From assembly GCA_023078555.1 (NCBI GenBank), contig CM041202.1, positions 186,001 through 250,000 on the forward strand: 64,000 nt of DNA, in the 5' to 3' direction. Source of the stretch: Ulva prolifera (lineage: Eukaryota > Chlorophyta > Ulvophyceae > Ulvales > Ulvaceae). Of this stretch, positions 6,073 through 62,226 are shown one piece after another. Every line of letters begins with the position of its first letter. Within the stretch, counting starts at the first letter, position 1. The notes under the pieces are model-generated. The model was not told the origin of the DNA and did no database searches. It saw only the letters and a program-made list of their open reading frames with translations. The position numbers and the translations under genes are program-made.

Positions 6073-6079
6073 AATATAA
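6073..6079 (+). promoter_or_regulatory. possible TATA-like element
   Basis: AAATATAAG lies about 100 bp upstream of the phosphoesterase start at 6179, in the divergent gap between that gene and BFN. Position and sequence fit a TATA box; nothing else supports it. Confidence 0.3.
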
Positions 6080-6178
6080 GCGCGCAGGGGATGTGTGTTC
6101 CGGTGGCTCCAGCGAGGCCATGAGCGCGTTGTGATCCACCAGGTCTTTGTCATCTAAGTCAAAGCGAGATGTGAGATC

Positions 6179-34429: not shown

Positions 34430-37240
<2,811 letters not shown>

Positions 37241-40885: not shown

Positions 40886-43800
40886 TCACGACAGCATCTC
40901 AATCAAGGTCTGCATAAGCTCCCGGACCTCCTCCTGCACGCTCCGCCGCTGTATCATACCGCTGACAGTACACACATATTGAGATATACTTGTTCAGATA
41001 AACTGTGGCATACCTTGTCCTGTTTGATTGATTCATCGAGCTTCTTTGCCTGCGGACCCTTCCGGTTGCGGGCGGGGCCGGATGCCAGCTTCGCTAATTC
41101 GTCCTCAGACTTGGCTATTCTGTCATTGAGAACCTGGAGGGCATGCCTGAGAGATTCTACTTCGGCCTCTGCCTGGCGCTTCTCCAGAGCTGGATGAGTA
41201 TCTTTTTTCTTTGCCTTCTGCAGAACAACGATGCTGTCACACGATCTCTCGCACCTACGGAAACAACATGACCAGCATCACTCTTTTGTAAACTCACATG
41301 TGTTATAAGCAAGGACCTATGCGCAGCATTCATCAAGCTAGCTAGTGGGCTGCAGAGCCGTTACCTGTGGAGCACTCAGGTCGTACGTCGGCAATGCACA
41401 GATCAAGGGATGTACTGTAATGCAGTGAGGCAATACAGGAACCACGTAAGACTGTAAGAGAATGGTTACAGTAGACTTGGAGGCACATGACTATATGCCA
41501 CCGATCAGTCAAGTCTACAGCGGTCATAATCACAGTGACCGCACACAATCCTCACATGGATTGTGCTGGATTATGCTCATGCATATGATCATGCATATGT
41601 CCTAACATAACAGGAGTTGGGCCCGTGGCCACCACACTCATGTGCGTACTTGCACGTCATGCATTGTGTCCCAGGATGGACCTCATTTATGACACTCCCC
41701 TAGAGACTAATCTGGACTGGCATCAGATGAAGTCTCTTCCGAACATCCTTCAATGCAGGACCTGGTAACACCTTCGTGAAGACATCAGCAAGCTGGTCTT
41801 TGGTCCCTACCCATTGCACTTGAATCTCGTCTGCCTCTACAAATTCACGGACCCTTAGGTGCCGCACTCGAATGTGTTTAGACCTATCACTAGAGATTGG
41901 GTTGTTGGCTAGGATATTCGCACTTTTATTGTCTCCCCAAAGCACAGGTTTTTCTGGACGAAGATGCAGGTCTAACAACAACTGTTTAGCCCACATCAAC
42001 TCGTTTGCTGCACTACTCATAGCGATCAGCTCAGCCTCAGTTGTATCACCAGCAGTGATAGGCTGTCGCTTCGACCTCCAAAATACTGTGTTGCCATAGA
42101 CCCTTAGGACTAGGCCACTCACACTTTTCAGGCCTTTGTCATTCGCGAAATCAGCATCCGAATAGCCTTCCAGCAAACAGCTCTTTGATGAGCCCTCAAA
42201 CACTAGACCTAGTTCCTTCGTGGACTGCAGGTATCTCAGTATATGTTGCACCGCTGGCCAATGCTCCTTTAAACTACACCCCATATGTTTGGCCAAAACA
42301 TTGCAGGCATAAGAAATATCAGGCCGCGTAACTACAGCAATATATTGGATGCCTCCTACAGCACTCATGAATCTAGCGTGCTCAGCCTGGTCTGCTACCT
42401 CAAGTTCGGGATGATCCTTCGCACTCCTCAACTGTTGCCTTGGCACCAGCGGAGTCGGACCAGGTCGGCAATCTGCCATGCTGAATTTCTCTAGCAGGTT
42501 CACTACTTTCTGCTGCTGAGATAGAGAGATGATCTTCTGCTTCCTATCCCTGGTGATTGAGGCACCTAGTGCCCACGACAAGTCACCAAGGTCTCTACCT
42601 TCAAATGCTTTGAGAATCTGATCGATCAACTCCTTCAGGCCCGTAGACCGTCCAAAGATAAAAAGATCATCAACCCACAGAAATATGAAACACCTACCAG
42701 TTTTTCTAACATACAGTGCTGGGTCCGAATGTGATCTCACAAAACCCATTTCACCTAGCAAACGTGCAAGGGCCTTGTGCCATTCACGTGCAGCCTGCTT
42801 CAATCCATACAAAGTCTTAAGCAATTTCCACACACGATTTGTACCATCATTCAGGATAGGAGGCTGTTCAACGTAGACAGTCTCATTCATTACCCCATTC
42901 AGAAAGGCACACTGAATATCGACATGCTTCATTTCTAAGTCCTCTACTGCAGCGATCGAAAGCAATGCACGTAAAGTAGCATAGCTCCCTACTGGAGCCC
43001 ACGTTTCAAAGAAATCAATTCCCTCTTCCTGGGTAAAACTCCTGGCTACATACCGCGCCTTGTAACGCTGGATCTCCCCTGTGGGTCCCCTCTTTATCTT
43101 ATAGACCCACTTACCAGAAATGGCCTTGGCCCCTACTGGCAGCTCAACGAGCTCATAAGTTCCATGCTCGCTCAACGAAGTCACCTCCTCCTTCATAGCA
43201 CCATGCCACTTCTCGGCATCTTCTCCAGCTAAGGCCTGTTTCCAAGGCGGGCTATCAGGATCAAAAGGCTTCCTCTTCTTAATGGCTGCAACCCGACGGG
43301 ATGAACGTCGCTGGGCTGACTTACCGCCATCAAGCTCCCCATGCTTGGTCACCTCTGCACCAGCCACCGCACTGTCAGCCGTAGCCAACATGCCTGATGT
43401 TTCGGCTACCTTTGGTGCTACTGTCTGCTCACTCACTGTGCTATGCTCTATATCAACACTAGCTTCTATGACAGCAACATCTGCATGTGGAATCAAGCGC
43501 TTGCGTACAAGCGGGTTCCATTTGTGCCTAACTGGGGCCGACTGCGCTTCCTGCCCTTGGGCATCAGCAGCAGTGTCATGCAAATCAAAACTAACTTCTT
43601 TAGCAGGATGCATAGACTCCCCAGCGACAGGTGAGTTTGGGGCCGGACTTACCTCTCCCCTGGAGATAAATCCACCCAGATGCTCGCGCATGTAGTCCAT
43701 CCCATGCTCCAAGCTGCGAGCCGTAGCCCGACCGCCTGAAGCCCTGGGGATGGGTCCCCCAATATCCCCCATGGCACCTCGCGGCGGGCCAGCTGATCCC

Positions 43801-46800
43801 GCCGCGGCAGAGCTGGGTTGATGTTGTATCTCCATGTCGCGGACACTCACCTCATCTACTCTGCCAGAGTCGCTGGCGAGAGATCTCCCCGGAGATGTGA
43901 AGCTCTGCGCCCTCTGGCTGTTGTGTGCGGCCGACGGCAACATGTCGATGTTGGAGTGCTCAAGCTCCCGAAAGCGGTCGACGTTGGAGTGATTGTTGAC
44001 GCGCTCGATGTTCTCACCTGGCTGGAGGTGCAAATCAACAGCACCTTGGCGTAGCTCCTGACTACGCACTACCGCATGGACGTTCTCCACTACCTCTGGA
44101 GTTGTCTGTCTAGTCTTCCGCTGTAGCTCCCCTGAACCGAGGTCATCCCCCAGCTCCGGAACTACATGCTCAAACTCTGCGGCCAGGCTATCGTCGATGT
44201 ACTCCGAATCATGCAGGTCAACAAGATTCTTGCCTATGGCCATCCTGTCAAAATCATACTCAGCAGCTCCGTGCACCTGCATGTACTGCTTGCGAGCAGC
44301 AACCGCATCGACATCTGACAACGGGGGCGCGTACACCTTTTCCGCCATCTTGGGCTGGAATTCTAGTTTCTCAACTTCACTCCTAGTCGCTGACGGCATG
44401 AGCCCTATCTCCACGCTATCGAATTTCTTGATGTACTCACGCAACATCGCAGCGCTATACACCATCTGCCGCACTTCAATCACTTTGCCGCCCCCCGGTA
44501 CGGATTGGTAAACCCTGTTCATGTGTGGGCCTTGACCCGGACCTACCCACACAGCGTTTGCTCCCCTAGCGTCTAGTCTTCGTAGATGCTGACCATTCTG
44601 ATAGAAATACACTGGCAAACCCCATGGGCGCATCTGCTCTACAAGCAGTTTGAATCGTTCAAGATTCAATGATCTCCCGTAGAAGACCATATACGGGACC
44701 ACAAGTCGGAAATTAGTGTTTTCCCAGAGTCTATTGCACCGCTCACTTTCGCCACGCTTTGCCTGTGCCGTGATCTCCTCTTCTGTCATCAGCTTATCAC
44801 CTTTAGCTAGAGCAGGCTTGTTACTCACACCTTTCGATTTCACTGCGAGCACTCTACTTCTATTAGCTCTGCTAAGATTTTCAATCGCATTGGACAAATT
44901 CTTCTGTATGAACTTTTTCTTTTCACGAGTCATCAAAGCAGTACTAGGCACAAGATTAGTGCAATGGTTGACACACATCGCCCCCTCCGGCCATAGCCGG
45001 CGGGGAAGATCGGTGGGGAGAATTGCAGCACGCATTTTGTCAGAGGTGACACCACACGTACGCTCTGCTATACCATTGCCCTCATGGTGTCCAGGAGCAC
45101 ATGTTTCCCAAGATATTCCGTTCTCCGAGAAATAATCTTGGCTGTAGACTTGACTGATCGGTGGCATATAGTCATGTGCCTCCAAGTCTACTGTAACCAT
45201 TCTCTTACAGTCTTACGTGGTTCCTGTATTGCCTCACTGCATTACAGTACATCCCCTGATCTGTGCATTGCCGACGTACGACCTGAGTGCTCCACAGGTA
45301 ACGGCTCTGCAGCCCACTAGCTAGTTTGATGAATGCTGCGCATAGGTCCTTGCTTATAACATGGTATCGATGAACGTTTGCGCGATTGCATTCGTTGTGC
45401 GTAATAGTGGTGTGTCATATGACCGCGCATGCCCAAGGGCATCTGCGCTGCTTTAGTGCGTAGTCATATGACCAGATCAACCGCATGATAGTCAACAGTA
45501 GTCATTCGCATGTTTGATTGCGAGCTGTGTGGCTGCGGTTTACATTAGATTAGTCGTGACGGTCCACGGGCCGGCCGACGAAGCTGCCCGCGCGAGAGAA
45601 GAGATCGCTCGCTGCAGGTAGACCATGTCATCACCAGAAGGGGAAGCTGCTCTTGAAGCTGAGGCTACGGCCGAAGCTGAGAGGCAAGCTGCTCTCTTGC
45701 ACGCTTCGGGCGATGCACCTGGTGGCGTACCCACTACTAGCCGTGCTGACGGGCCAGCCGCTGGTACTAGACGTGCACAAGCTGCACAAGCTGCCTCTCA
45801 GCTCGAAGCTGCTAACGCTACGGCGGAGCAAGCTCGGGTTGAAGCAAGCAATGTTCGTGCTGCTCTAGCGCGCGCGGAACAGGCTCGTGAAGCTGCCGAG
45901 GCTGAGGCGGAAGCTCTGCGTGCTACGGCCCAGGCTGAAGCTGATGACTCAGGTAATAGTCATCTGAATGCGAACTTAGTTGATGCTAATGCCATAGTTG
46001 ACGCAATGAGATCTATGAACTTCCGTGAGCCCGCGATTGACAAAGGGAAGTCCCCACAGTGGGATTTTAGTAAAGGTGAACGATTCTCAACGTTTGAGTT
46101 TCGTGTTGAGCTGTGGCTCAAAGGCCATGGCCTTCATCACCTTCTGACAGAATTGCCTACTGGTCCTGAGACTGCAACTCATGACAAGGTAATGGCAGTT
46201 GTATGCTTTGCACTGCCAGCACAGGACTTAGAATATGTCCGTGTGTTTGTCTCCCTTAAGGATGTATGGAGTGCACTGCGTGCCAAGTATATGCCTAGCA
46301 AAGAGGCAGAGATCAGATCCCTGTGGGATAGGTTCTCCCGTGCTGTACTCAAAGGTCATAGAGCCACGCAGGTAGAAGAATACTGCACATATATTATGTC
46401 CTTAGTCAATCAGCTGACTGCTTTGGGTGCTCAACCTGCTCAGTACCAGGTTAGCAACAAGCTGTTCGAGCCTCTCGGTCGGGAATTTGTATCATTGCGT
46501 AGTGAGCAAGGAGGTCGTGATTTCCTCACTCAGATAGCTGCCATCACGAATCACGCACGGGCATTAGATGCCTGTGGACCTCCCCAAGGGGCAGGGCGTG
46601 ATCATGGCCCTAGAGGTAGGAACCCACAACAGCCACAGCGCCCTGCAGTTGCTGCCGTCGCTGCCAATGAGACCCGCACATGCTACGTGTGCAAGAAGAC
46701 AGGCCATCTCCAGAAGGACTGCCCGGATATCCATCCGGAGGTCAGAAAGTTCCTCTCTGAGCAGGCAGCTCAGCCTCGCGGCAACAACACCGGCCGCGGA

Positions 46801-49800
46801 CGAGGACGCGGACGCGGACGCGGACGGGGCAGAGGCCCATCCGTCGCTGCACTGGAGTTTCCAGGTGACGGATTCAGCATGGTTGATGTTGCCCGCCTGG
46901 GCGAGCTGTGCAATTTTCTCATAGACAGTGGATCTCAAGCTCATGTGATCCGTAATCCTGAGCTATTCGTCTGCATGCGGAAATCGAGAATCCCGTGCAT
47001 CCAGCCTGTCGGTGACGAGGACATTCCTGTCGTGGGCGAAGGAACAATTTGTTTCAAAGTAGGTTCGTATGTGACTACGGGTGGTGATGTGAAGGAATTA
47101 GTCCTAGAGATCCCGAGCTGTCTGTATGTCCCTGCATGCCCCTTCAACATCTTGTCTACGGAGGAGTTGAAGCATGAGAATATTTTCCTGCAAACACGTG
47201 CTGTCACGGAGGGAGGTGATATAGTCATCATCCCAGGCTTCTCTGACCAGGCCCTAGGCCACAAGGAGGGTAGGATTAACCAATCCACAGACGCGAAGAA
47301 TCGACCTGTTCTTTTCATTGAGACGGATAAGGGCAAGCCCATCCTAAGGGGTGAGCAAGTCAATAGTCCTAGTGTGTGGTCCTCGAGCAATGCCGTGGCA
47401 AAGCTCGAGAGTGACGAGGCCGATCTCTGCAGAATAGCTGCATTGACTGGCAAGGCACAACATGTTCCGGGTGCTGCCAAGCTGAACACGACATTTCTGA
47501 CACATTTGAGTCTGCAAACGGGCACATCCATTCTGCAAATGATGTCCAAAGCTGAGGTGTATAAGGGTCTAGGAATTAAATCTGATGTGGTGAAGGAGAA
47601 TCTAGGTCGCTGCCACGGTTGTCGCCTAGCCTCCCATGATTCCGGCTCTAGCAATCAGCATGGCACAAACGTAGAACATGATGAGGCCCAATGGCCTGGT
47701 GCATGGCTGCATGTTGATGTTATGGGTCCCATTTTGCCTGTAGGGGTAGGAAAAGCACGGTACATTCTCATAGTCGTCGATGAGCATTCACGCTACAGTT
47801 TTGCATGTCCAATGGATGCGAAGTCCAGAGTGCCACAGCTGCTAGTTGAAATCATTGAGCACATACGGTCTAGTGTTCTTCCGCATGAGTTCGTTGATGA
47901 TGAGGGCATTAAGATCACACCTAGAGTTATGGGTGTACACGGAGATCTTGGCGGAGAGTTTGAGGGTCACAATATCCAAGATTATTTCTCGGAGAACGGA
48001 ATATCTTGGGAAACATGTGCTCCTGGACACCATGAGGGCAATGGTATAGCAGAGCGTACGTGTGGTGTCACCTCTGACAAAATGCGTGCTGCAATTCTCC
48101 CCACCGATCTTCCCCGCCGGCTATGGCCGGAGGGGGCGATGTGTGTCAACCATTGCACTAATCTTGTGCCTAGTACTGCTTTGATGACTCGTGAAAAGAA
48201 AAAGTTCATACAGAAGAATTTGTCCAATGCGATTGAAAATCTTAGCAGAGCTAATAGAAGTAGAGTGCTCGCAGTGACATCGAAAGGTGTGAGTAACAAG
48301 CCTGCTCTAGCTAAAGGTGATAAGCTGATGACAGAAGAGGAGATCACGGCACAGGCAAAGCGTGGCGAAAGTGAGCGGTGCAATAGACTCTGGGAAAACA
48401 CTAATTTCCGACTTGTGGTCCCGTATATGGTCTTCTACGGGAGATCATTGAATCTTGAACGATTCAAACTGCTTGTAGAGCAGATGCGCCCATGGGGTTT
48501 GCCAGTGTATTTCTATCAGAATGGTCAGCATCTACGAAGACTAGACGCTAGGGGAGCAAACGCTGTGTGGGTAGGTCCGGGTCAAGGCCCACACATGAAC
48601 AGGGTTTACCAATCCGTACCGGGGGGCGGCAAAGTGATTGAAGTGCGGCAGATGGTGTATAGCGCTGCGATGTTGCGTTAGTACATCAAGAAATTCGATA
48701 GCGTGGAGATAGGGCTCATGCCGTCAGCGACTAGGAGTGAAGTTGAGAAACTAGAATTTACTACTTTCGCCACGATCTCCGTGTACACCCATAACTCTAG
48801 GTGTGATCTTAATGCCCTCATCATCAACGAACTCATGCGGAAGAACACTAGACCGTATGTGCTCAATGATTTCAACTAGCAGCTGTGGCACTCTGGACTT
48901 CGCATCCATTGGACATGCAAAACTGTAGCGTGAATGCTCATCGACGACTATGAGAATGTACCGTGCTTTTCCTACCCCTACAGGCAAAATGGGACCCATA
49001 ACATCAACATGCAGCCATGCACCAGGCCATTGGGCCTCATCATGTTCTACGTTTGTGCCATGCTGATTGCTAGAGCCGGAATCATGGGAGGCTAGGCGAC
49101 AACCGTGGCAGCGACCTAGATTCTCCTTCACCACATCAGATTTAATTCCTAGACCCTTATACACCTCAGCTTTGGACATCATTTGCAGAATGGATGTGCC
49201 CGTTTGCAGACTCAAATGTGTCAGAAATGTCGTGTTCAGCTTGGCAGCACCCGGAACATGTTGTGCCTTGCCAGTCAATGCAGCTATTCTGCAGAGATCG
49301 GCCTCGTCACTCTCGAGCTTTGCCACGGCATTGCTCGAGGACCACACACTAGGACTATTGACTTGCTCACCCCTTAGGATGGGCTTGCCCTTATCCGTCT
49401 CAATGAAAAGAACAGGTCGATTCTTCGCGTCTGTGGATTGGTTAATCCTACCCTCCTTGTGGCCTAGGGCCTGGTCAGAGAAGCCTGGGATGATGACTAT
49501 ATCACCTCCCTCCGTGACAGCACGTGTTTGCAGGAAAATATTCTCATGCTTCAACTCCTCCGTAGACAAGATGTTGAAGGGGCATGCAGGGACATACAGA
49601 CAGCTCGGGATCTCTAGGACTAATTCCTTCACATCACCACCCGTAGTCACATACGAACCTACTTTGAAACAAATTGTTCCTTCGCCCACGACAGGAATGT
49701 CCTCGTCACCGACAGGCTGGATGCACGGGATTCTCGATTTCCGCATGCAGACGAATAGCTCAGGATTACGGATCACATGAGCTTGAGATCCACTGTCTAT

Positions 49801-52800
49801 GAGAAAATTGCACAGCTCGCCCAGGCGGGCAACATCAACCATGCTGAATCCGTCACCTGGAAACTCCAGTGCAGCGACGGATGGGCCTCTGCCCCGTCCG
49901 CGTCCGCGTCCGCGTCCTCGTCCGCGGCCGGTGTTGTTGCCGCGAGGCTGAGCTGCCTGCTCAGAGAGGAACTTTCTGACCTCCGGATGGATATCCGGGC
50001 AGTCCTTCTGGAGATGGCCTGTCTTCTTGCACACGTAGCATGTGCGGGTCTCATTGGCAGCGACGGCAGCAACTGCAGGGCGCTGTGGCTGTTGTGGGTT
50101 CCTACCTCTAGGGCCATGATCACGCCCTGCCCCTTGGGGAGGTCCACAGGCATCTAATGCCCGTGCGTGATTCGTGATGGCAGCTATCTGAGTGAGGAAA
50201 TCACGACCTCCTTGCTCACTACGCAATGATACAAATTCCCGACCGAGAGGCTCGAACAGCTTGTTGCTAACCTGGTACTGAGCAGGTTGAGCACCCAAAG
50301 CAGTCAGCTGATTGACTAAGGACATAATATATGTGCAGTATTCTTCTACCTGCGTGGCTCTATGACCTTTGAGTACAGCACGGGAGAACCTATCCCACAG
50401 GGATCTGATCTCTGCCTCTTTGCTAGGCATATACTTGGCACGCAGTGCACTCCATACATCCTTAAGGGAGACAAACACACGGACATATTCTAAGTCCTGT
50501 GCTGGCAGTGCAAAGCATACAACTGCCATTACCTTGTCATGAGTTGCAGTCTCAGGACCAGTAGGCAATTCTGTCAGAAGGTGATGAAGGCCATGGCCTT
50601 TGAGCCACAGCTCAACACGAAACTCAAACGTTGAGAATCGTTCACCTTTACTAAAATCCCACTGTGGGGACTTCCCTTTGTCAATCGCGGGCTCACGGAA
50701 GTTCATAGATCTCATTGCGTCAACTATGGCATTAGCATCAACTAAGTTCGCATTCAGATGACTATTACCTGAGTCATCAGCTTCAGCCTGGGCCGTAGCA
50801 CGCAGAGCTTCCGCCTCAGCCTCGGCAGCTTCACGAGCCTGTTCCGCGCGCGCTAGAGCAGCACGAACATTGCTTGCTTCAACCCGAGCTTGCTCCGCCG
50901 TAGCGTTAGCAGCTTCGAGCTGAGAGGCAGCTTGTGCAGCTTGTGCACGTCTAGTACCAGCGGCTGGCCCGTCAGCACGGCTAGTAGTGGGTACGCCACC
51001 AGGTGCATCGCCCGAAGCGTGCAAGAGAGCAGCTTGCCTCTCAGCTTCGGCCGTAGCCTCAGCTTCAAGAGCAGCTTCCCCTTCTGGTGATGACATGGTC
51101 TACCTGCAGCGAGCGATCTCTTCTCTCGCGCGGGCAGCTTCGTCGGCCGGCCCGTGGACCGTCACGACTAATCTAATGTAAACCGCAGCCACACAGCTCG
51201 CAATCAAACATGCGAATGACTACTGTTGACTATCATGCGGTTGATCTGGTCATATGACTACGCACTAAAGCAGCGCAGATGCCCTTGGGCATGCGCGGTC
51301 ATATGACACACCACTATTACGCACAACGAATGCAATCGCGCAAACGTTCATCGATACCATGTTATAAGCAAGGACCTATGCGCAGCATTCATCAAGCTAG
51401 CTAGTGGGCTGCAGAGCCGTTACCTGTGGAGCACTCAAGTCGTACGTCGGCAATGCACAGATCAAGGGATGTACTGTAATGCAGTGAGGCAATACAGGAA
51501 CCACGTAAGACTGTAAGAGAATGGTTACAGTAGACTTGGAGGCACATGACTATATGCCACCGATCAGTCAAGTCTACAGCGGTCATAATCACAGTGACCG
51601 CACACAATCCTCACATGGATTGTGCTGGATTATGCTCATGCATATGATCATGCATATGTCCTAACATAACAGGAGTTGGGCCCGTGGCCACCACACTCAT
51701 GTGCGTACTTGCACGTCATGCATTGTGTCCCAGGATGGACCTCATTTATGACAACATGACCAGCATATATACGATGTTGATGCATCAGCAAGCGCACTGC
51801 ATCATTATGAACGCGCGTACATGAGCCTGGGCTTATGAAAGCACAGTTTATGTCAACCTTGTGGAGGTATGTACAGATCAAGGCGTACCGGTTCATCCTC
51901 CTGTATGTCCATCTCTGTTGGGCCGCTTCGCCGAGTCTTGGGCACCTTGGGCACTGGCATCTCGTCGTCCGCTTCTTCCGGGCCGGCTGCCACTATGTGG
52001 GGTAGGACCTCGAGCTCTACGTCATCGCTGTCAGGTACATCCTCCCGTGTTCGGTTGAGAACCGGAGGTGAAGGGGGGAGATCGGCGAGTGACCTGTCGC
52101 TGCCTCTCTTGCGGGCGCGTCTCCCGCCGTTGCTGGTCTCGGCCTGCGTAGCAAAGCATGTCGCGATTCTGGATCGACGCTACTTCCACGGCTGACATCG
52201 CTTTAAAATCCCTGCGTCATGTACAGCATGGCCACGAAGACGTACCCGGCCACCCTGTTGGCTCCTCCGGTGAGTGGGACGCAACGGAGATTCCGCTGTC
52301 TGTTCCCTTTTCATCTCACCCAGGATGAAATCCCTAAAGTAGTGGTTGTCAGCCACGTACACTCCGTCTTCCCGTGCCCACTGCGCGGCCGACTTCATCG
52401 TGCCATCGCCGTAAGCAGTCCTGGTTCCGATTCTGGACAGCTGCATGTATAGGTGATGTGTCAGTGGCGTGCGCTTGTCACGTGCACTAGGATGCTGTTG
52501 CCTAATGTGTTCGTTGTGCAGTATCAAAACGTCCGCATCAGATGGGTCAGGCGCGGTGCACGAGAATGGTTGGTGGGCCACCAGCCATTCGGGCATGCGT
52601 GCACGTCACTATTTTCACGCGCCTCGGAATGGTTGGTGGGCCACCAACCATTCGGGCAGGCATGCACGTCAGTATTCACGCGCCTCGGAATGGTTGGTGG
52701 CCCACCAACCATTCGGGCATGCATGCACGTCAGTATTCACGCGTCTCGGAATGGTTGGTGGCTCACCAACCATTCGGGCATGCCTGCATCTCACTATCCA

Positions 52801-55016
52801 CGGGCCCCGAATGGTCGGTGGGCCACCAGCCATTCGGGCATGCATGCACGTCACTATTAACGCGCCTCGGAATGGTTGGTGGCCCACCGACCATTCGGGC
52901 ATTCAGGCATCTCACTATCCACGGTCCCCGAATGGTCGGTGGGCCACCAGCCATTCGGGCATGCATGCACGTCACTATTAACTCGCCTCGGAATGGTTGG
53001 TGGCCCACCAACCATTCGGGCATTCAGGCATCTCACTATCCACGGGCCCCGAATGGTTGGTGGGCCACCAACCATTCGGGCATGCATGCACGTCAGTATT
53101 CACGCGTCTCGGAATGGTTGGTGGCTCACCAACCATTCGGGCATGCCTGCATCTCACTATCCACGGGCCCCGAATGGTTGGTGGCCCACCAGCCATTCGG
53201 GCATGCATGCACGTCACTATTAACGCGCCTCGGAACGGTTGGTGAGCCACCAGCCATTCGGGCATTCAGGCATCTCACTATCCACGGGCCCCGAATGGTC
53301 GGTGGGCCACCAGCCATTCGGGCATGCATGCACGTCACTATTAACGCGCCTCGGAATGGTTGGTGGCCCACCAACCATTCGGGCATGCATGCACGTCACT
53401 ATTAACGCGCCTCGGAACGGTTGGTGAGCCACCAGCCATTCGGGCATTCAGGCATCCCACTATCCACGGGCCCCGAATGGTCGGTGGGCCACCAGCCATT
53501 CGGGCATGCATGCACGTCACTATTAACGCGCCTCGGAATGGTTGGTGGCCCACCAACCATTCGGGCATTCAGGCATCTCACTATCCACGGGCCCCGAATG
53601 GTCGGTGGGCCACCAGCCATTCGGGCATGCATGCACGTCACTATTAACGCGCCTCGGAATGGTTGGTGGCCCACCGACCATTCGGGCATTCAGGCATCTC
53701 ACTATCCACGGGCCCCGAATGGTCGGTGGGCCACCAGCCATTCGGGCATGCATGCATGTAACTATTAACGCGCCTCGGAATGGTTGGCGGCCCACCAACC
53801 ATTCCGAGCAGTCCTGCATGTACGTCACGATCCGGGAGCAAGAAGAACGCGCCTGTTCTTGCTCCACGTCCTTCACTGCCGCGGTCACTCTCGGGTCCTT
53901 GCGGTCTCGCTCGCTCTGCCGCATCTTCTTGTTGTGATCAAATGCTCGTCGAGGGAAACCCCTGCAAGAACAGGATGATCACGACTGTGCGTGTGTGCTT
54001 ACACGAACACAAGATGACCACCGATTACGGCCGAACAGGTGCATCCTGACACAGTCGTGATGCACAGTCGTGATGTCGCATGCTCAAGAGGACACGCACT
54101 TGTACTTCACGTCCCTCAACATGGCTTGCTGGCCCCGAAATGCTGCTGCTATGTTCCTCGCAGCCGTGTACGCCGTCCCCTCTTTGCCCGCCTGCAGAAG
54201 TCAATCAAGTATGGTCGTCATCGATGTACTGTGGTGGCCATTGCCCCCCGCGGAGCACAGTCCGTGGCGACCACTTCCAGCAAGAAAACAACAACTGGGT
54301 CATTCACACTACACGCTCAGCCATACAACACAACACGAAACCATCCCAATCCACCGTAATCTTCACACTACCGTATGGCAACCGCCCCAGCAAGTCAGGC
54401 CGGCGATAGAGTCAAGTTGTTAGCAGGCATAGCACAAGCGTACCCCCGCTGCTGCCGCTGCGATCGCACCAACGTGCTGATGCATCAGCATACTTCCTTC
54501 ATACATCCGCAGCTTTGGGTCGCCGGTGTCCTTCAGCAGCGCCTGCATCAGCGGAGACGCCTTGTCCTCGTCCCTCATCTGGCCCAGGATCGCCGACAGC
54601 TTGTCAGTCCACATCAGAACTCCCGACTGTAGTACCTCCCACACGTGATCGCTGTCGCACGTCGCAGCGGTAGCAGTGGAGCCCGCTGTGCGTGCCGACG
54701 CCCCTGAAGCGGAGCCTCGATTCTTCCGCAGGTTGATGGGCTGGACCAACACCGGGGGCTCGATGCCGCCAGCGATCTTCCCCTTCTCGAAGTAGAATGA
54801 AATACATCTCTTCAGGGACTCCACGCTGTCGAGGTCCAAGGTGGCGTCCTCGTCGTTGGCCGACGACAGTGTCATGCCGTCCGACCCCCCTCCCCTTCGC
54901 CAGATACTCCTCGCTAGCACGTCCAGCATCCCATTCGCAGAGTCGTCATCCGCAGTGTCTTTGTCGACGACGATCGCGGCCTCTCGCTTGAACTGAAATT
55001 GAAGGCTGTCCGACAT
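40886..55016 (-). CDS. novel coiled-coil protein gene, split by satellite and copia insertions
   Basis: Seven exons join in phase on the minus strand: 55016-54444, 54191-54100, 53961-53829, 52440-52246, 52143-51875, 41254-41014 and 40948-40886, giving 521 aa. I recognise no domain. The N-terminus is mixed and acidic (DLDSVESLKRCISFYFEKGK). The middle contains FPRRAFDHNKKMRQSERDRK and REDGVYVADNHYFRDFILGE. The C-terminus is a probable coiled coil (EAEVESLRHALQVLNDRIAK) ending RELMQTLIEMLS. Intron 3 holds a 21-copy palindromic satellite. Intron 5 holds a whole copia element; removing it and its 5-bp target duplication leaves an intron of about 165 bp. The gene is divergent from the CACTA-like transposase with 332 bp between starts, so it may be the accessory (TnpA-like) gene of that transposon; this is inference. 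A shorter version stopping at 51853 is possible if the last intron is not used. Confidence 0.66.
41301..41694 (-). repeat. copia 3' LTR
   Basis: In element sense it runs TGTCATAAATGAGGTCC to GCTTATAACA (TG...CA ends). It is preceded by the short polypurine tract AGGGGAG (41695-41701), which overlaps the TAG stop of the polyprotein. Confidence 0.95.
41700..45135 (-). CDS. copia integrase C-terminal part, reverse transcriptase and RNase H
   Basis: The frame covers the end of the integrase (HHEGNGIAERTCGVTSDKMR, containing the catalytic Glu), a linker, the reverse transcriptase (ETWAPVGSYATLRALLSIAA, LYGLKQAAREWHKAL, WVDDLFIFG with the catalytic Asp pair) and RNase H (GYSDADFANDKGLKSVSGLV, WGDNKSANILANNP). 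Its first about 20 codons (45200-45141) are translated LTR sequence fused by the rearrangement, so no native start codon exists. The missing gag-protease-integrase half is at 48751-51096. It ends SL followed by TAG within the polypurine tract. Confidence 0.92.
45141..45361 (+). repeat. partial inverted LTR inside the copia element
   Basis: 221 bp correspond to the reverse complement of the first 221 bp of the left LTR as written. The sequence is joined at CTACAGC/CAAGATT to integrase sequence and leads into a second primer binding site at 45362. Confidence 0.9.
45625..48681 (+). CDS. inverted second copy of copia gag-protease-integrase
   Basis: The 1,018-codon frame starts with an Ala/Glu-rich gag. 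It has a CCHC zinc knuckle (CYVCKKTGHLQKDCPDIH), an aspartic protease motif (FLIDSGSQAHVI) and an integrase: zinc-binding Cys pair CHGC, catalytic Asp in WLHVDVMGPI, GVHGDLGGEFEGH, and Glu in HHEGNGIAERTCG. It stops at TAG 48679-48681, where the other copy has GAG (LREYIKKF), so this is a nonsense mutation. Similarity continues to about 48760 before the junction. No reverse transcriptase follows. Confidence 0.92.
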   Translation: MSSPEGEAALEAEATAEAERQAALLHASGDAPGGVPTTSRADGPAAGTRRAQAAQAASQLEAANATAEQARVEASNVRAALARAEQAREAAEAEAEALRATAQAEADDSGNSHLNANLVDANAIVDAMRSMNFREPAIDKGKSPQWDFSKGERFSTFEFRVELWLKGHGLHHLLTELPTGPETATHDKVMAVVCFALPAQDLEYVRVFVSLKDVWSALRAKYMPSKEAEIRSLWDRFSRAVLKGHRATQVEEYCTYIMSLVNQLTALGAQPAQYQVSNKLFEPLGREFVSLRSEQGGRDFLTQIAAITNHARALDACGPPQGAGRDHGPRGRNPQQPQRPAVAAVAANETRTCYVCKKTGHLQKDCPDIHPEVRKFLSEQAAQPRGNNTGRGRGRGRGRGRGRGPSVAALEFPGDGFSMVDVARLGELCNFLIDSGSQAHVIRNPELFVCMRKSRIPCIQPVGDEDIPVVGEGTICFKVGSYVTTGGDVKELVLEIPSCLYVPACPFNILSTEELKHENIFLQTRAVTEGGDIVIIPGFSDQALGHKEGRINQSTDAKNRPVLFIETDKGKPILRGEQVNSPSVWSSSNAVAKLESDEADLCRIAALTGKAQHVPGAAKLNTTFLTHLSLQTGTSILQMMSKAEVYKGLGIKSDVVKENLGRCHGCRLASHDSGSSNQHGTNVEHDEAQWPGAWLHVDVMGPILPVGVGKARYILIVVDEHSRYSFACPMDAKSRVPQLLVEIIEHIRSSVLPHEFVDDEGIKITPRVMGVHGDLGGEFEGHNIQDYFSENGISWETCAPGHHEGNGIAERTCGVTSDKMRAAILPTDLPRRLWPEGAMCVNHCTNLVPSTALMTREKKKFIQKNLSNAIENLSRANRSRVLAVTSKGVSNKPALAKGDKLMTEEEITAQAKRGESERCNRLWENTNFRLVVPYMVFYGRSLNLERFKLLVEQMRPWGLPVYFYQNGQHLRRLDARGANAVWVGPGQGPHMNRVYQSVPGGGKVIEVRQMVYSAAMLR
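48751..51096 (-). CDS. copia gag-protease-integrase, first half of the resident element
   Basis: The frame matches 45625-47960 almost residue for residue: gag, CCHC zinc knuckle, Gly-Arg-rich stretch, FLIDSGSQAHVI protease, and integrase up to VMGVHGD. There the inverted segment interrupts it and a short foreign tail ends the frame. The start at 51096 lies about 260 bp inside the primer binding site. Near identity with the inverted copy points to one recent event. Confidence 0.92.
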   Translation of the reverse strand: MSSPEGEAALEAEATAEAERQAALLHASGDAPGGVPTTSRADGPAAGTRRAQAAQAASQLEAANATAEQARVEASNVRAALARAEQAREAAEAEAEALRATAQAEADDSGNSHLNANLVDANAIVDAMRSMNFREPAIDKGKSPQWDFSKGERFSTFEFRVELWLKGHGLHHLLTELPTGPETATHDKVMAVVCFALPAQDLEYVRVFVSLKDVWSALRAKYMPSKEAEIRSLWDRFSRAVLKGHRATQVEEYCTYIMSLVNQLTALGAQPAQYQVSNKLFEPLGREFVSLRSEQGGRDFLTQIAAITNHARALDACGPPQGAGRDHGPRGRNPQQPQRPAVAAVAANETRTCYVCKKTGHLQKDCPDIHPEVRKFLSEQAAQPRGNNTGRGRGRGRGRGRGRGPSVAALEFPGDGFSMVDVARLGELCNFLIDSGSQAHVIRNPELFVCMRKSRIPCIQPVGDEDIPVVGEGTICFKVGSYVTTGGDVKELVLEIPSCLYVPACPFNILSTEELKHENIFLQTRAVTEGGDIVIIPGFSDQALGHKEGRINQSTDAKNRPVLFIETDKGKPILRGEQVNSPSVWSSSNAVAKLESDEADLCRIAALTGKAQHVPGAAKLNTTFLTHLSLQTGTSILQMMSKAEVYKGLGIKSDVVKENLGRCHGCRLASHDSGSSNQHGTNVEHDEAQWPGAWLHVDVMGPILPVGVGKARYILIVVDEHSRYSFACPMDAKSRVPQLLVEIIEHIRSSVLPHEFVDDEGIKITPRVMGVHGDRGESSKF
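51345..51359 (-). other. copia primer binding site
   Basis: TGGTATCGATGAACG directly follows the LTR end in element sense. TGGTATC is the usual start of an initiator-methionine tRNA complement. The same sequence occurs inverted at 45362-45376 in the internal copy. Confidence 0.75.
51360..51753 (-). repeat. copia 5' LTR
   Basis: Same length and ends as the left LTR. It is followed in element sense by a primer binding site. Confidence 0.95.
52564..53805. repeat. palindromic satellite array, 21 copies of about 60 bp
   Basis: Each unit contains an odd-length palindrome with 13-bp arms (GAATGGTTGGTGG and complement) around one central base, followed by about 33 bp of spacer. Two spacer types are largely interspersed: GGGCATGCATGCACGTCACT followed by ATTAACGCGCC, and GGGCATTCAGGCATCTCACT followed by ATCCACGGGCC. 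Together they form a higher-order dimer of about 121 bp in most of the array. The array lies in intron 3 of the coiled-coil gene. It gives a spurious open frame on several phases. Confidence 0.95.
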
Positions 55017-55348
55017 CGCGACGCGTACACAACAGAGAGGACCGGAACCAAACAGACACTTAGCAGCCAATACGTTTACAGTAACTTCAACTTCTTTGGA
55101 ACTTGGCGAAGCCTATCCGTCGATGCTGGTATCCAACCTTTTGAAAACACAGTGCCGTGTTGGTGCCCGGCCATTGGCCACAGGGACACTCCCTCGTTAC
55201 ATCCTCACGCATGATTATCCCCCGCCACTCAACTCGTCCCCGAGTACGCTTGCACTACGCCTGAACCTCGTTCATACCACGCCGCTCGCTTGCCGCGACG
55301 TCTTTCCATTCATCCAGGCAGAGTTTATCGACGTTTACTGTGCAGATA
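55017..55348. promoter_or_regulatory. shared divergent promoter region of coiled-coil and transposase genes
   Basis: The 332 bp between the two start codons must hold both 5' UTRs and promoters. No specific element was identified. Confidence 0.4.
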
Positions 55349-58300
55349 ATGGCTCCGCGTAAGCCTCGCACCGCCAAGCGTACTGTAGACGACGACCTTG
55401 CAACCGTTGGCATTCTGCGCCTTGATCCTCCTCTTCGTGAAGGGGACCGAAAGTTATTATACAGGTGCAGTAAATGTAGTAAACCGTTTGACAGGCTTCT
55501 AACCGCCCAGAACCACCCCCGCGCCTGCCCCACGGCGCGCGCTCAGACTCGTGACGATGGCACTGGCGATGACACAGGCAGCCAGCAAGTGGCGGGCAAC
55601 CAGCCTCCGGGCGATGTCGACCTCGGTCGAGTCGACGAGGTCCTCATCGAGGTGTGCCTGTCCCTGAACACCTCGTCTGATCTCCGAGTGCTGACTATCT
55701 GGTGATCGTGATTGGTGTCATGTGGCCAGGTCCCTGAGGGCTCCGACGTATCCGAAGAAGACTACGGAGACGACGATGCCGACAGCCTTTACGACGACGC
55801 CAGCAGTGTCCTCTCCAGCCTGTCAGGAGATGACTGGGACACAGACTCTACCGAGGTTTGTCCTTTCGGTGTCCCCCGACGCAGCCTAATTATCCGATTT
55901 GCTCTTATGCTGGGCACCCACCCCCTGCTCCCTGTCGCTGTAAATGGCTGGTGAATATGTGCAGAGCGACTCCCTCGATGGCCGCGAGGGTCCACAGGTC
56001 GCAGCTGAGGCTGCAGCCGTGAAGGGGACTGCCGCATGGTGGCGTCAGAGACGGATGGATCCGGTCTCCGACACCTGCCGTCTCACAGTGTTGACTGTAT
56101 CAATGTGGATCGCCAGCCTGAAGAGCATGTTCCGGATGAGTGATGTTGTGGTGGACATGTGGTGTCGTTTTGTGCATTACCTACTCTTACCAGATGGGAA
56201 TATGTTCCCCCCATCCTTCCACCTGGTCAAGGCTGTCCTGGCTGTACCAGATGTCTCTTCAGTGACCCGGCACGTGTGCCCACAGTGCTGGACTCTCTTC
56301 CCAGGTATAAAGCCGTGTGATCATACCCACCACTTGGACGATGTCTGCAACACCCCAGGGTGCACCCAGAAGCGTTTCGAGGTGGACCTGGCAGGCAAGG
56401 GTGCACCTTGCCGGAGTGTCTTCTACTTTGGGGAGGCCGCATCGCTGAAAGACCTGATTCTGCAACCCGGCGTCCTTGCCGCGGTTCGTGCTCATCGAGT
56501 GCACGCCCTAAAGGATCCCGCCGGTTTCTGGAAGTCCCCTGCCGGACGTGCCCTGAACGCCAAGTGCGGGGGGATTTTCGACAAGGCTGACCCGGACGAG
56601 ATTGCACTGCTTTTCAGCTTGGGTGCGCTCGCCTTGAGTTCGACCTATCCTGCGTCATCATCACTCAGTAGCCAGGCCATTGATATCGGCTGGGTCCAGT
56701 GGGGCCTGCAGTAGCCTCTCCCGGACACTGAGCCCGCTTGCAGGGGGTGACGGCGCCCACCTGTACGTGAACAAGCAACACGGGACCACAATCTGGGGCA
56801 TCCGCCTGCTGGACCTCCCCCCTCATCTGTCTCATTGCAATGATGCCTGGATCCCCCTGGGGGTGGTCGAGGGCCCAACTGAACCCACGAACATGGACAG
56901 CATCCTTGCACAGGTACTCGAGTTCTTCAAGAAGCATGACCCAGGTACGTGTCAGTCTGGTGAGTGTGTACCTAACGCACACTCATGTCCGGCCAGTGCT
57001 TGATGTGGCTGTGTTTGACTATGAACCCCCTACGATGCAGCCAGGAAGGGGGAGGACGGGATCGAGGCTTTCAAAGTTGAGATGCCCGACGGGACAGTTC
57101 TGCGCATCTGGCCTGTGCTCTGCTGTGTGGAGGGCGACATTCCATGGATGCAGAAGTTGACCAACAGCATCGGGCACGGCGGCAAGAGGGCGTGCTACCG
57201 TTGCGCCCAGAACGGCGTCTGGGTGTTCGCAGCCAACACAGTACGGTATGTTGGCTCCAGTTGCCGTGCCGTCGCCATGCTGCCTCTGACCACCACTGCT
57301 TACCCCTGGCATCCCGGCCAAGCCCGCCTCCGCCACCCCCTCCGACATGGCTTGGGGGCTCCCTACTGTCCTTATCAGACATCCGCCGTGCAGCTGGCTT
57401 GGGTTCCATGGCCCGGTCATCCAGCCTCAGCCGGTTCACGCTGCGGGGCCTGATCAAGGAAAGCCCCTCACAGCGGCGCAAGAGGCCGACATTGCCGCGG
57501 GGGCGGTGCCAAGGATGGTGCCCGGCAGTCTGGAACCAGACCCCGGGCCCCCCCCCCCCCCCCCCTCGCACGAAGTGGTCCGAGGTTACCACCATCGACC
57601 CGGCGACTCTGGCAAAGGACTGCCGGCTGAAGTACTCTGCTTCGGAGATGTGCGCTCGCGGCCACACAGCAGACCAGTTGACTGATCAGGTGCGGGTACC
57701 CTTGTATTTGAATCTTTCCTCTGTCATGCGGCTCATGTGCCTGCATGCATGGTCGATGTTCTGCCGATACGCCCACCAGGAGGCTTGCATGCAGACCACC
57801 AGCCCCACGTTGGACCGCTACACTGCCAAAGACACCCTGCTGGAACGGCAGAAACTTGCGAAGAAGGAGCACATCCGCCTGGGGGTTAAAGGGTCATCCC
57901 TGTTCAGCACCCTCTCATACTTCAAGTGCGCACCCCTACCACAGGACAGCGGCAGTACCGTCATCTGGACCCATGAATACACCGTGAAGGAGGTTGTTTC
58001 TGCAGTCCATGCCACTTCTTCCGCTACGGTGTCGCGCACGTGTTCCTCCTTGGCCTCCTCATGGACTTCTGGAATCAGTGGCTGCCGAGTTCGAAGAGGC
58101 GTAAGAAAGCCCGCCCTGCAGGCCCCAGGCGGTTGTATCAGCTGCCTAAAGAGGTGGTGGCCCAGATCGCTGCCCGCGCGTCCCACTTCATGCACACTTA
58201 TCTGTTCAAGAAAGTGTACACCGACATCACCAAGTGCGGTTCCGCGGCCCCCCACAATACGGCAGCGGTCACTGGTTACTGCTGGCAGCTGTCCCATGCA

Positions 58301-59722
58301 CAAATGTCGTGAACCTTACATCTTGTGGAGGCCAGCAGGTGGCTCGCTTCAAGTTTGCACTGCTGCAGGCACCGGTCTCGGTGGCTCATGGAGGACTGGC
58401 TTGCGTTCACTGAGACGTTCTCCTTGTACTTGCTGCACGACCTCCAATGGGAGCCCGACCAGGAGGATGTTCGGCTGGTGTTCGAGGAGATGTGGACGCA
58501 CCTCCGGGCAGGCACCCTGTATTTCCTGCGGTACGAGGAGCTCCAGCATACCGCACCCCGGATCAAAGCAGCTCAAGACGCATTGATGAAGTACGGCGCG
58601 ATGGCAGAAGATCTCTTTGGGGGGGAGGTGATCTGCACCTTCAAGCTTCATATTGCAGCCTGGCACCTACCGGACCAGGTGAGATGCTGTGGGCCTGCGT
58701 TCTTCTGTCTAGAGTTCTGGATCGAACGCATGGTGCAGCTACTTAAACGGCTGATCAAATATCGTTCCACCAAATCACCAGAGAAAGTGTATGTCAACGA
58801 TGAGCTGCTGCGGCGCACATGCATGAGGCTGCTTCACAGCAGCGAGACGGCAGAGGCGGCCATGCGCACGTTGCAAGAGGCCGTGGCCTCAGAGAAACGC
58901 CGTCGGTCAAAACGGCGCAAGGTCCGGGCCGCTGTGCACATGGGCGACACCGACTCTGATGACGGTGATGACGACAGGGTGTTTGGGGCGGGTAAGGACC
59001 TCGACGCCGAAGAGAAGAAAGAAGTGATGCCGCTGGGGTACACTGGGGTCGGTGAGTTGTCCGGGCTGCCTTACCTGCTCTACCACCAGGACGCCCTGCA
59101 GGATGCAGGGTGGCCGACCCAGCGGGTCTTGGGTGCGGGCTACGGCAGGAGAGAGGCCATCATGCGGGCGCTTGGGCTGCCGGTCGCTGGGGAGGTTGTT
59201 GCTGAGCGGCAGCTCTGTGAGGTGCACCTGCGAAAATTCCTGCGAGGGCGGGCTTTGGTAGGGGATGTCCTGACCTGTGCGCAGCACACTGGTCAGGGTA
59301 AGAAAGACAATCGATGGTGCCTGCTGAAGTACCATGTAGTAGAAGAGGGTACGAATAGGGGCCAGGATCGGTACTATGTCGGCGACTTGCAATACATAGT
59401 CCGTGCCAGGCTCAGCACGGCAGACGGGTCGAATATCTGTAGAACCTGCACTGTAGAGGCCAGCGTACTGTACCTCGGTGTGACAGACGTGTACGAGTGT
59501 AGTACACCCTATACACCCGGATGCAGGGAGGCGGATGAGGAGCTGAACCGCGCTCCCGAGTTTTACAGGGTTGATGGCGTGCATCACCGTTCCTCAGCTT
59601 ACACTGGCCGGTATGTAGTGAACATTGATGCTATGGCCGGGCAGCTGGTTCCGGTGAAACGGACGGCAGGAGGTGTTCAGTACTGGCAGACAGCGAATAA
59701 GGCATCCGGGCGTACTGTGTAA
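55349..59722 (+). CDS. CACTA/Plavaka-like (Tnp2-type) transposase, interrupted in the middle
   Basis: The first exons join in phase: 55349-55651, 55730-55855, 55965-56622, 56744-56944 and 57041-57245. They encode a Cys/His finger (YRCSKCSKPFDRLLTAQNHP with a following Cys), an acidic stretch, CPQCWTLFPGIKPCDHTHHL, YFGEAASLKDLILQPGVLAA, the region GDGAHLYVNKQHGTTIWGIR to IPLGVVEGPTEPTNMDSILA, and LTNSIGHGGKRACYRC. Later coding lies at about 57440-57690, 57730-58310 and 58370-59722. The last part includes a DUF4218-like block (FKLHIAAWHLPDQ, WIERMVQLLKRL) and a C-terminal domain ending at 59722. This order matches Tnp2-type transposases. A run of 18 C (57548-57565) and a frame change near 58000 break the frame, by decay or sequence error. 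Exact splice sites after 57245 are not resolved. Confidence 0.72.
57548..57565 (+). repeat. poly-C tract inside transposase coding sequence
   Basis: Eighteen C residues separate a frame reading PLTAAQEADIAAGAVPRMVP from one reading TKWSEVTTIDPATLAKDCRL, so the tract length decides whether the exon is intact. Confidence 0.9.
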
Positions 59723-59755
59723 GTAGGTCATCCCCCATATGGCGGCCACCATGCG

Positions 59756-59905
59756 GAATGCATGTGCCCAGTCAGCGCCACCGTGGAATGGTCGGTGGCC
59801 CACCAACCATTCCGCATGCGAGCAATGCATGTGCCCAGTCAGCGCCACCGTGGAATGGTTGGTGGCCCACCAACCATTCCGCATGCGAGCAATGCATGTG
59901 CCCAG
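59756..59905. repeat. second, short array of the same palindrome
   Basis: Two copies of the GGAATGGTTGGTGG palindrome sit in a 65-66 bp unit whose spacer (GCATGCGAGCAATGCATGTG then CCCAGTCAGCGCCACCGT) is unlike that of the 52.6-53.8 kb array. It starts 33 bp after the transposase stop codon. Confidence 0.93.
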
Positions 59906-60120
59906 CACTACTCAAGTGTCTACAGGATGCCCGCGTGCACAGCGTCGATGCTGTGACGTCATGTGGAGTTGGCCAAGGCCAGCCTGGCTTCTCAAGGACA
60001 CGCGCTTCTCACACGCGCTGTATCCATGTACCTCCTTTACAGTACACCACGCGTCTCGCTCCAGCTTGTGTAGTATTAGCTCCCATTGTCGTTCGAGCCC
60101 GTGGCCCGCGATTCATTCCG

Positions 60121-61533
60121 ATGTCTTCAACGTTGAACATTGGCACGATCACCGTGCAAACGCTGAACTCGTACCTCACTGACTTAGATAGTAGAGCTCA
60201 ATATGAGCCTACTTTTTATAGATTCGTGGAGGTAGCGTCACAGGGAAACTGGGTTCCTGGGCACCGCATCCCGTCGCTGGTCATGGACAGGCCACACGGC
60301 TTTCCGGTGGACATGATGGAATCCGGCTGGGTACTGACAGCTTACGATGTCGCTATGATAGATACCATCCTTGCCGGCGATAAAAAGGCGGAGTCCAGGA
60401 TGATGGCAGGCTTCTCGTCCATGGGAAGGGTACTAACCCGCGAAGTAGCGGGCGCAAGTACTCCATACCTAGCTGCTACGCACCATTTAAAGCTGCTATG
60501 GGTCGCGATGCGAGAAGCCGCGTTTCAGCGGGCCGTCCAGTCAGAAGCACCGTGCGGGGTGCATGCCATCGCGGTGTACAGGTCCGTCGCCACGACCCAA
60601 GGCCCCGACGAGACCATGGCAGGGCTTCTGCTTCGCCTCCGGATGACCATCGGTGGCCGGCCGATTGCAGCATGGTGGGATAGGCTCCAGGCCAGCGCCC
60701 CACAAGCCACACCGATGTGGCCCAGACCGGCGGTCCTCGAGGCCCGCTTAACGGCGCCAGTAATGCCGCCGCAGCTCGAACCCCAGGGTGCACAGCTGTC
60801 GGCCCCGCATGGCGGTGTCATGCCATCTGGGTCACCGCAGGCCCCCGAGCCTGGCCCTCCCGAGAGGGCAGAATCCTGCGGCCAGAGCGCTGTGGGGACC
60901 ACGGTGGCGTCCCGCCTGGCACCAGCCCCCGACAGCCCCCGGGACGATGACGCAGCGGAACGTGCAGTAGCGGCAACACCGCCAGCGGCTCTGCCGGATC
61001 GACAGGAGTGCGCGGCCCCCAAGGCAAAGGGGGCTGCTGCTTCTGGGCGTGCAATGATGCACCCTGCCCAGCCCAGGAGGTTCAGCCGCGGCGCAGTACT
61101 GGCTGCAGCCGCCCAGGACCCTCCTGGGCCCACACCGGCGTCGCCGCGCCAGTTAGCCGGTGCCGCTGGGCCGATGGAGGTGGACACCCCAGACGGTAGG
61201 GAAGGCGCAGCTCACCCACCCGCCGTGGGGAAGGGGTTCTTGTCCCCAGAGAGCTTGCTGCCACCGGAGGGCGGGGGAGGGAGACAGCCAATGAACCGGG
61301 CTCCGGAGAGGTCGGATGCCCGGCCGCTGAAGCGGCTGGCCGCTGAAATGTCGCACGTGGCCCCCACGGGGAACCTCCTCCGCGGCCAGAAGCTCGACGT
61401 GGTGGACGTGGAGTGTCCATCAGGCAGCACTAGAGTGCCCAGTGTTGAAGTGCACCTGGCAGATTTCGGTGCCACGAAAGTGACGGTACATGTGGCTGTC
61501 GACCACTTCCGGGAGTTCTGGGTGATGTCATGA
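60121..61533 (+). CDS. unrecognised 470-aa protein, possible third gene of the transposon
   Basis: A single open frame starts at the Met of MSSTLNIGTITVQTLNSYLT; an open extension upstream to 59758 runs through the palindromic array and is not credited. Residues 1-220 look globular (YEPTFYRFVEVASQGNWVPG, ATHHLKLLWVAMREAAFQRA). Residues 220-420 are rich in Pro, Ala and Gly. The end is again ordered (VDVECPSGSTRVPSVEVHLA, VHVAVDHFREFW). I recognise no family. It follows the transposase on the same strand. Its last three codons, ATG TCA TGA, overlap the start of an LTR-like repeat at 61526, so the native C-terminus may have been cut off by that insertion. Confidence 0.6.
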   Translation: MSSTLNIGTITVQTLNSYLTDLDSRAQYEPTFYRFVEVASQGNWVPGHRIPSLVMDRPHGFPVDMMESGWVLTAYDVAMIDTILAGDKKAESRMMAGFSSMGRVLTREVAGASTPYLAATHHLKLLWVAMREAAFQRAVQSEAPCGVHAIAVYRSVATTQGPDETMAGLLLRLRMTIGGRPIAAWWDRLQASAPQATPMWPRPAVLEARLTAPVMPPQLEPQGAQLSAPHGGVMPSGSPQAPEPGPPERAESCGQSAVGTTVASRLAPAPDSPRDDDAAERAVAATPPAALPDRQECAAPKAKGAAASGRAMMHPAQPRRFSRGAVLAAAAQDPPGPTPASPRQLAGAAGPMEVDTPDGREGAAHPPAVGKGFLSPESLLPPEGGGGRQPMNRAPERSDARPLKRLAAEMSHVAPTGNLLRGQKLDVVDVECPSGSTRVPSVEVHLADFGATKVTVHVAVDHFREFWVMS

Positions 61534-62186: not shown

Positions 62187-62226
62187 TGTCATGATCTTAC
62201 AAAGGCGCCGATGGGGCCAGCGTGCG

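Follow-up and report, generated by a model that had tools for sequence, protein, structure and literature searches.

Does a cluster of three genes in the green alga Ulva prolifera form a transposable element with accessory genes of its own, or is it a host gene cluster? It lies in a stretch of 64,000 nucleotides, here called the window (GenBank assembly GCA_023078555.1, contig CM041202.1, positions 186,001 to 250,000; C7:186001-250000 in the genome scanned, which comprises 88.9 Mb in 44 contigs). A reading made from the letters alone (the sequence-only reading) had placed there, at 40886..61533, a CACTA-like transposase between a divergent gene of 521 amino acids and a gene of 470 amino acids, both associated with the same hairpin repeat, and had suggested a new element family with two accessory genes. 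The cluster belongs to a genuine CACTA (EnSpm) transposon with multiple copies in the genome, and the copy in the window is broken. Four genes stay together in this family, its palindrome arrays are based on the terminal motif, and different accessory cassettes and left-gene types are found combined with a common core.

The window element starts at 39951, outside the interval first delimited, with the terminal inverted repeat (TIR) CACTAGGAGAATGGTGAC (39951..39968, + strand), and its right end lies beyond the window. The start rests on a genome search with the terminal 350 bp and on counts of the TIR pattern. All 40 scored matches of the 350-bp probe begin at its base 1 (40 of 67 candidates were scored), and the TIR pattern occurs 119 + 124 times in the genome, compared to 1 + 0 times for a reversed control pattern. 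A transposase probe gave at least 50 genome matches, at least 30 of them at 89-100% identity (family 1); these copy counts are lower bounds, since 40 of 88 candidates were scored. Ten of the 29 other transposase copies (c2 to c11) were taken with their flanks and compared to the window. The exact terminus CACTAGGAGAATGGTGAC is present in seven of them (c2, c3, c4, c7, c8, c10 and c11) and was not seen in c6 and c9; c5 runs beyond the fetched stretch.

Five full-length elements with both ends visible measure 19,276 bp (c4), 18,398 bp (c7), 17,441 bp (c10), 17,662 bp (c11) and 17,345 bp (D, a diverged element whose transposase is about 64% identical to that of family 1). They have 5'-CACTA...TAGTG-3' termini within terminal repeats of 18 bp, and the two ends of D differ by one mismatch. 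Target-site duplications of 3 bp, within the 2-3 bp typical of CACTA/EnSpm elements, flank four of the five (GTT in c7, ATA in c10, TAC in c11 and GTG in D; the right end of the window copy is outside the window), and the empty site of c11 was found in a flank of c4, where its two parts overlap by 3 bp. The assignment to CACTA-like elements is thus borne out by termini common to the copies and by their duplications. One TIR base is variable, being T at 60 and C at 40 of the 100 TIR places listed. Among these places, 36 neighbouring +/- pairs lie less than 30 kb apart, 22 of them T/T, 12 C/C and two T/C. According to the typed transposase places, ten of the 22 T/T pairs enclose a family-1 transposase and 12 none, and nine of the 12 C/C pairs enclose a transposase of family D or of a further family, E, and three none.

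The transposase gene (55349..59722, + strand; 30 copies at 89-100% identity) is of the CACTA/EnSpm type and was modelled on c10 with eight exons and 1194 amino acids; our own window models wrongly merged the transposase with the gene that follows it, and exons open in other copies were relied on. The predicted catalytic residues, read by eye, form the series D..D..C(2)C..H(4)H..E, at 56749, 57133, 57193, 58649 and 58724, and are kept in family E; PMC12730594 describes D..D..C(2)C..H(3-4)H..E as the motif set of CMC-type transposases. Separately, a family-E CACTA element was seen within the family-1 transposase gene of c8, at a site corresponding to window position 58927 and with the flank CGG, and a remnant related to it occupies the same site in c9. 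Two further transposase clades, F3 and F4, are 42% and 39% identical to family D and have many copies each (e.g. C9:3368899 and C10:504833).

Two retroelements interrupt the window copy; neither belongs to the CACTA element. A Copia retrotransposon fills 41301..51753 (- strand), with long terminal repeats (LTRs) of 394 bp at 41301-41694 and 51360-51753 that are 99.7% alike, and with a target duplication ACATG. At 61525 the window departs from the sequence common to c2-c5 and enters a Gypsy-type LTR element (61526..64000, - strand, running past the window end), which interrupts the third gene; a piece of that gene recurs at C7:256722-256995, beyond the window end. The frame 62230-63999 (-) of this second retroelement matches integrase H2C2 (1.2e-14), rve (1e-08) and a PHD finger (1.6e-08). 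The genes placed at 40886..61533 exist, but the interval itself needs correction, as does the window annotation, two of the three genes seen being interrupted by retroelements. Two details concern the retroelements only. The Copia element holds an inverted partial copy of itself at about 45141-48767, which begins about 79 bp inside the LTR and has arms of 2813 and 783 nt, scored as 100% complementary, the shorter also as 99.7%; either an abortive insertion of the element into itself or an assembly error could explain it. In the Gypsy-type element, the PHD-finger domain directly precedes the integrase zinc-binding domain.

The arrangement of divergent gene, transposase and following open reading frame was as described, with starts at 55016 (-), 55349 (+) and 60121, respectively. 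The first exon of the left gene (54444..55016, - strand) comes from our own splice model on Copia-free copies and is open in c4, c10 and D; further exons were modelled leftwards to about 40700, spanning the Copia insertion. The length of 521 amino acids could not be reproduced, the models giving 579 (c10), 633 (c4) and 349 (family D) amino acids with uncertain 3' exons. Between family 1 and family D the first exon has 41% amino-acid identity, and its third codon positions are the least conserved. A single-sequence fold of this exon was uninformative (predicted local distance difference test score of 35). Counted when it lies no more than 12 kb upstream of the transposase, the left gene precedes all 30 family-1 transposases, 28 of them at 1.46-1.63 kb, one at 2.4 kb and one at 10.1 kb, and this constant association led us to reject a host gene cluster. 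There are 35 left-gene places genome-wide. One scan of viral contigs found no relative.

The 470-codon frame proved to be only the front part of a ULP1-like (Peptidase C48) protease gene (60121..61525, + strand), cut before the catalytic domain, and its last codons come from the Gypsy-type LTR at 61526. This junction, together with the intact copies, which continue into the ULP1 domain, rules it out as a complete novel gene. Intact proteases match PF02902 with 28.0 bits (form A, c4) and 33.2 bits (form B), above the cut-off of 20.7, which identifies both as ULP1/C48 proteases; the protease piece of family D scores 18.1 bits, below that cut-off. In element D a run of N, at 8916-13237 of the joined D sequence, spans most of the transposase gene and part of the protease gene. 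The putative catalytic H, D, Q and C appear by eye to be retained in both forms, and the window gene, severed at 61525, has no catalytic domain attached. The statement that neither neighbour belongs to a recognised family consequently fails for the third gene and stands for the left gene, whose product gave no Pfam match at the thresholds used. The accessory genes number three instead of two, as a fourth gene accompanies the protease; its product likewise gave no Pfam match at these thresholds, and its 3' half is uncertain, the c10 model having extended into the protease antisense strand.

With a search reach of 16 kb from the transposase for the protease and 20 kb for the fourth gene, a ULP1-like gene lies beside 25 of the 30 transposase copies. 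Protease A is on the transposase strand in 16 copies, 12 with the fourth gene opposite and four, including the window, without it. In eight copies protease B is opposite to the transposase strand and the fourth gene is on it. One copy (C2:3723504, within an 18.1-kb T/T pair) combines the A orientation with a B-like protease, its fourth gene lying opposite, one has the fourth gene alone, and four have neither. Since these counts rest on DNA and protein probe matches, missing genes may be damaged or interrupted copies. Candidate genome places for the two protease forms number 22 and 37. The neighbours are thus neither lost together from the other copies nor single-copy host genes: given the 35 left-gene places and these protease places, they are multi-copy and travel with the transposase, as the sequence-only reading had anticipated.

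Could the ULP1-like and fourth genes nevertheless be host genes that the element picked up as passengers and that contribute nothing to its movement? Plant transposons often capture ULP domains (PMC2528002), and the four copies in which neither gene was detected fit such a view. Against it, family D holds both genes despite the divergence of its transposase, and the protease residues noted above are kept in both forms. Third codon positions are moreover the least conserved in first-exon comparisons of A and B for the left, protease and fourth genes, and in A-D comparisons for the left gene, the fourth gene and a transposase exon, a pattern expected of coding genes that are kept. We therefore consider it unlikely that the two genes are mere passengers.

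The hairpin repeat reported near both neighbours was recovered. Array 1 (52564..53804), found by repeat and pattern search, has 21 palindromic units GAATGGTTGGTGG.CCACCAACCATTC spaced 60-63 bp apart, and array 2 (59786..59879), found by repeat comparison, has two, at 59786 and 59853. Arrays occur at three places: one in a modelled left-gene intron, one behind the transposase and one close to the right end. The intronic position holds for the c10 model, in which the left array lies within the intron save for its last 9 nt; the c4 model, which we distrust, places exons within the array. Folded as single-stranded DNA, an array 1 unit reaches -11.7 kcal/mol (z -4.8; none of 200 shuffles folds as well), and the unit at 59786 is weaker (-7.5 kcal/mol, z -2.7, 5 of 200). 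The hairpin core pattern has 646 + 608 matches in the genome and its reverse none, although true hairpins are fewer than these 1254 matches because a near-palindrome can match both strands. Among the 100 matches listed, all of them on contig C1, three hairpin clusters were seen by eye to lie between a T-type TIR pair (1.02, 3.88 and 4.76 Mb), and three more stand next to one T-type end without a partner, 2-11 kb inwards from it (0.80, 1.80 and 2.84 Mb); no listed C1 cluster falls inside the four listed C-type pairs below 4.77 Mb.

The motif GAATGG[T/C] is common to the hairpins and terminal repeats in both families examined, family 1 and D/E, on which this comparison rests. The palindrome arms read GAATGGTTGGTGG inwards in family 1 and CGAATGGCCACTC outwards in D and E. 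In the family-1 arrays of the window, c4 and c10, every GAATGG of a left arm is followed by T, and right arms have T or C; the hairpin arms of D/E have GAATGGC in 34 of 34 cases, where the D/E TIR has C. The arrays thus carry GAATGG[Y] as the TIR does, yet are partly internal instead of subterminal, and it is plausible that the hairpins are cis-acting binding sites. They might instead be a recombination-prone satellite that shares GAATGG by chance or by descent from the ends and binds no protein. Such a satellite would account for left arrays of 5 to 21 units among the window, c4, c7, c10 and c11, for perfect arms over 13 bp in only seven of the 23 window units and for a left array at least 2 kb from the left end. 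It is less easily reconciled with the scarcity of a 7-base match to the TIR in shuffled arms (207 and 141 per 20000 in the two families, for a motif picked after viewing), with the use of the same core in opposite directions by the unrelated palindromes of the two families, or with two short T-paired elements, of 6.5 and 6.0 kb, which retain arrays and in which no transposase match was detected. We regard the satellite as possible, though somewhat doubtful.

Two forms, A and B, of the stretch bounded by array 2 and the right array were distinguished; they have diverged and face opposite ways on a core that is much more alike. The elements c4 and c10 are colinear up to about position 9650 of c4 (95.4% identity over the first 2 kb, 93.0% over 2695-9499), then c4 9286-18130 aligns in the opposite direction with c10 16838-8605, the main pieces being seven at 64-77% identity, and the last 201 bp again match directly at 97.5%. 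The breakpoints fall within array 2 and the right array, which look by eye like inverted copies of one another. Between c4 and c10 the first protease exon is 64-70% identical, and third codon positions agree at 92.2% in the last transposase exon and at 52.8% in the protease; as the transposase introns are 92.9% alike, the divergence of the cassette is more than constraint alone would produce.

These differences could have arisen with no cassette swap, if A and B were old lineages whose core, meaning left gene, transposase and ends, was homogenised by gene conversion and whose inverted cassette was unable to convert. An inverted segment would indeed block pairing and conversion, and the contrast between core (93-97%) and cassette (64-77%) in c4 and c10 agrees with this. 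The B-like protease at C2:3718496-3736605, 91-92% identical, has the A orientation, however, which means that orientation and cassette type are not locked together, and the left-gene types are shuffled as well. This account is conceivable, but we lean towards exchange between elements. In c11 the left part is 79-92% like c4 and c10, and the B cassette is 98-100% like that of c10. When left genes are split into types at >=93% or <=91% identity to the window, the four combinations with cassettes A and B are represented by 9, 7, 7 and 1 copies (24 of 30; six copies with no cassette call were dropped). Because all four occur, the modules have been shuffled by recombination between or within elements, and the element seems to be built from exchanged parts. 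Of the type B protease places, the 11 best match the c10 probe at 98-100%, which fits one inversion followed by spread; a cassette that switches orientation freely was considered and is not supported by this uniformity. The A order is probably ancestral, as D and the C2:3718496 element have it.

Taken together, the window quite likely contains a damaged member of a family of large CACTA elements of the cut-and-paste type, equipped with a transposase, a TnpA-like binder, a protease and a helper, and with a cassette that was flipped and exchanged. The transposase would cut and join at the CACTA ends. By analogy with TnpA of En/Spm, a DNA-binding protein, most likely the left-gene product, would bind GAATGG[Y] in the ends and palindromes and thereby mark or pair the element ends. 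The ULP1-like protease may strip SUMO-like tags or otherwise counter host control, and the fourth protein may be a helper. Homologous recombination between inverted arrays could have flipped the cassette, and recombination or conversion between elements could have exchanged it. An element protein binding GAATGG[Y] at the ends might, in addition, act on the arrays as dedicated exchange sites, so that cassettes flip or swap between related CACTA elements. If true, a DNA transposon of a eukaryote would possess a functioning system of modular cassettes, but we consider this improbable.

Several observations weigh against the proposed cut-and-paste family. The transposase did not reach PF02992 (Tnp2) in the Pfam searches, and one of its exons matches DUF4218 only weakly (E 0.0034, below the cut-off). 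The triplets flanking c4 disagree (CAT/AGG), giving no matching duplication. No listed family-1 transposase lies near five of the 35 left-gene places, three of the 20 protease places of type A and four of the 15 of type B; parts found alone may be deletion derivatives. The roles given to the left and fourth proteins are guesses, since neither has a Pfam match. The T/C correspondence between TIR and hairpins is incomplete in family 1, as the 21 right arms of window array 1 carry T in 11 cases and C in 10, and the inversion may have happened only once.

How far the family is new can be judged from related systems, as described in the sources cited. ULP1 domains in CACTA elements are already known in plants (PMC2528002, PMC8978399), so this is not a new kind of element. 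The CACTA-ULP elements of grapevine and rice (Cactavine-2, -3, -4, -5 and -13; PMC2528002) and the Chenopodium CACTA domain types with Peptidase_C48 (PMC8978399) similarly combine transposase and ULP1/C48 in one element. Unlike these, the Ulva family has the protease as a separate gene in either orientation, a fourth gene, internal inverted hairpin arrays and a transposase below the Tnp2 profile. Tgmt* of soybean (20.5 kb; PMC2613891) is likewise a large CACTA element with a 3-bp duplication and repeats able to form 14 stem-loops, for which a TnpA-like binder was proposed. In Tgmt* the repeats are confined to 159 bp at the left end and 732 bp at the right end, whereas the arrays here are found about 2 kb inside the left end, at mid-element and 0.5-1.4 kb short of the right end, and the available part of its description mentions no ULP1 gene. 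En/Spm of maize, with a transposase and a DNA-binding accessory protein on subterminal repeats, served as our model (PMC2613891); its tnpA and tnpD transcripts share exons, whereas the left gene here is divergent and separate. KAONASHI (KIU) and VANC of plant Mutator-like elements (PMC13317346, PMC2528002) also include transposon-borne ULP genes in both orientations, and KIU-carrying elements are reported to evade silencing (PMC13317346, PMC2528002), but their hosts are Mutator-type and have no CACTA ends. No description of the present layout was recognised in the titles and abstract starts of the papers that searches of the open PMC library listed, a scope that excludes Repbase and subscription journals. 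The four-gene layout, the internal hairpin arrays and the inverted, diverged cassette are new here. They make testable what recognises CACTA ends in elements with no known TnpA relatives, and whether helper genes are exchanged between transposons via the elements' own internal repeats.

Elsewhere in the window, a search with the first part of the gene at 11675-14660 (+) identified a SPINDLY-like TPR O-linked sugar transferase. Three readings on the - strand (19232-20122, 34433-35452 and 36605-37348) resemble GMC oxidoreductases, and the one of them that was searched, 34433-35452, has matches among enzymes of solved structure, fatty acid photodecarboxylase being one of them (E about 7e-10).

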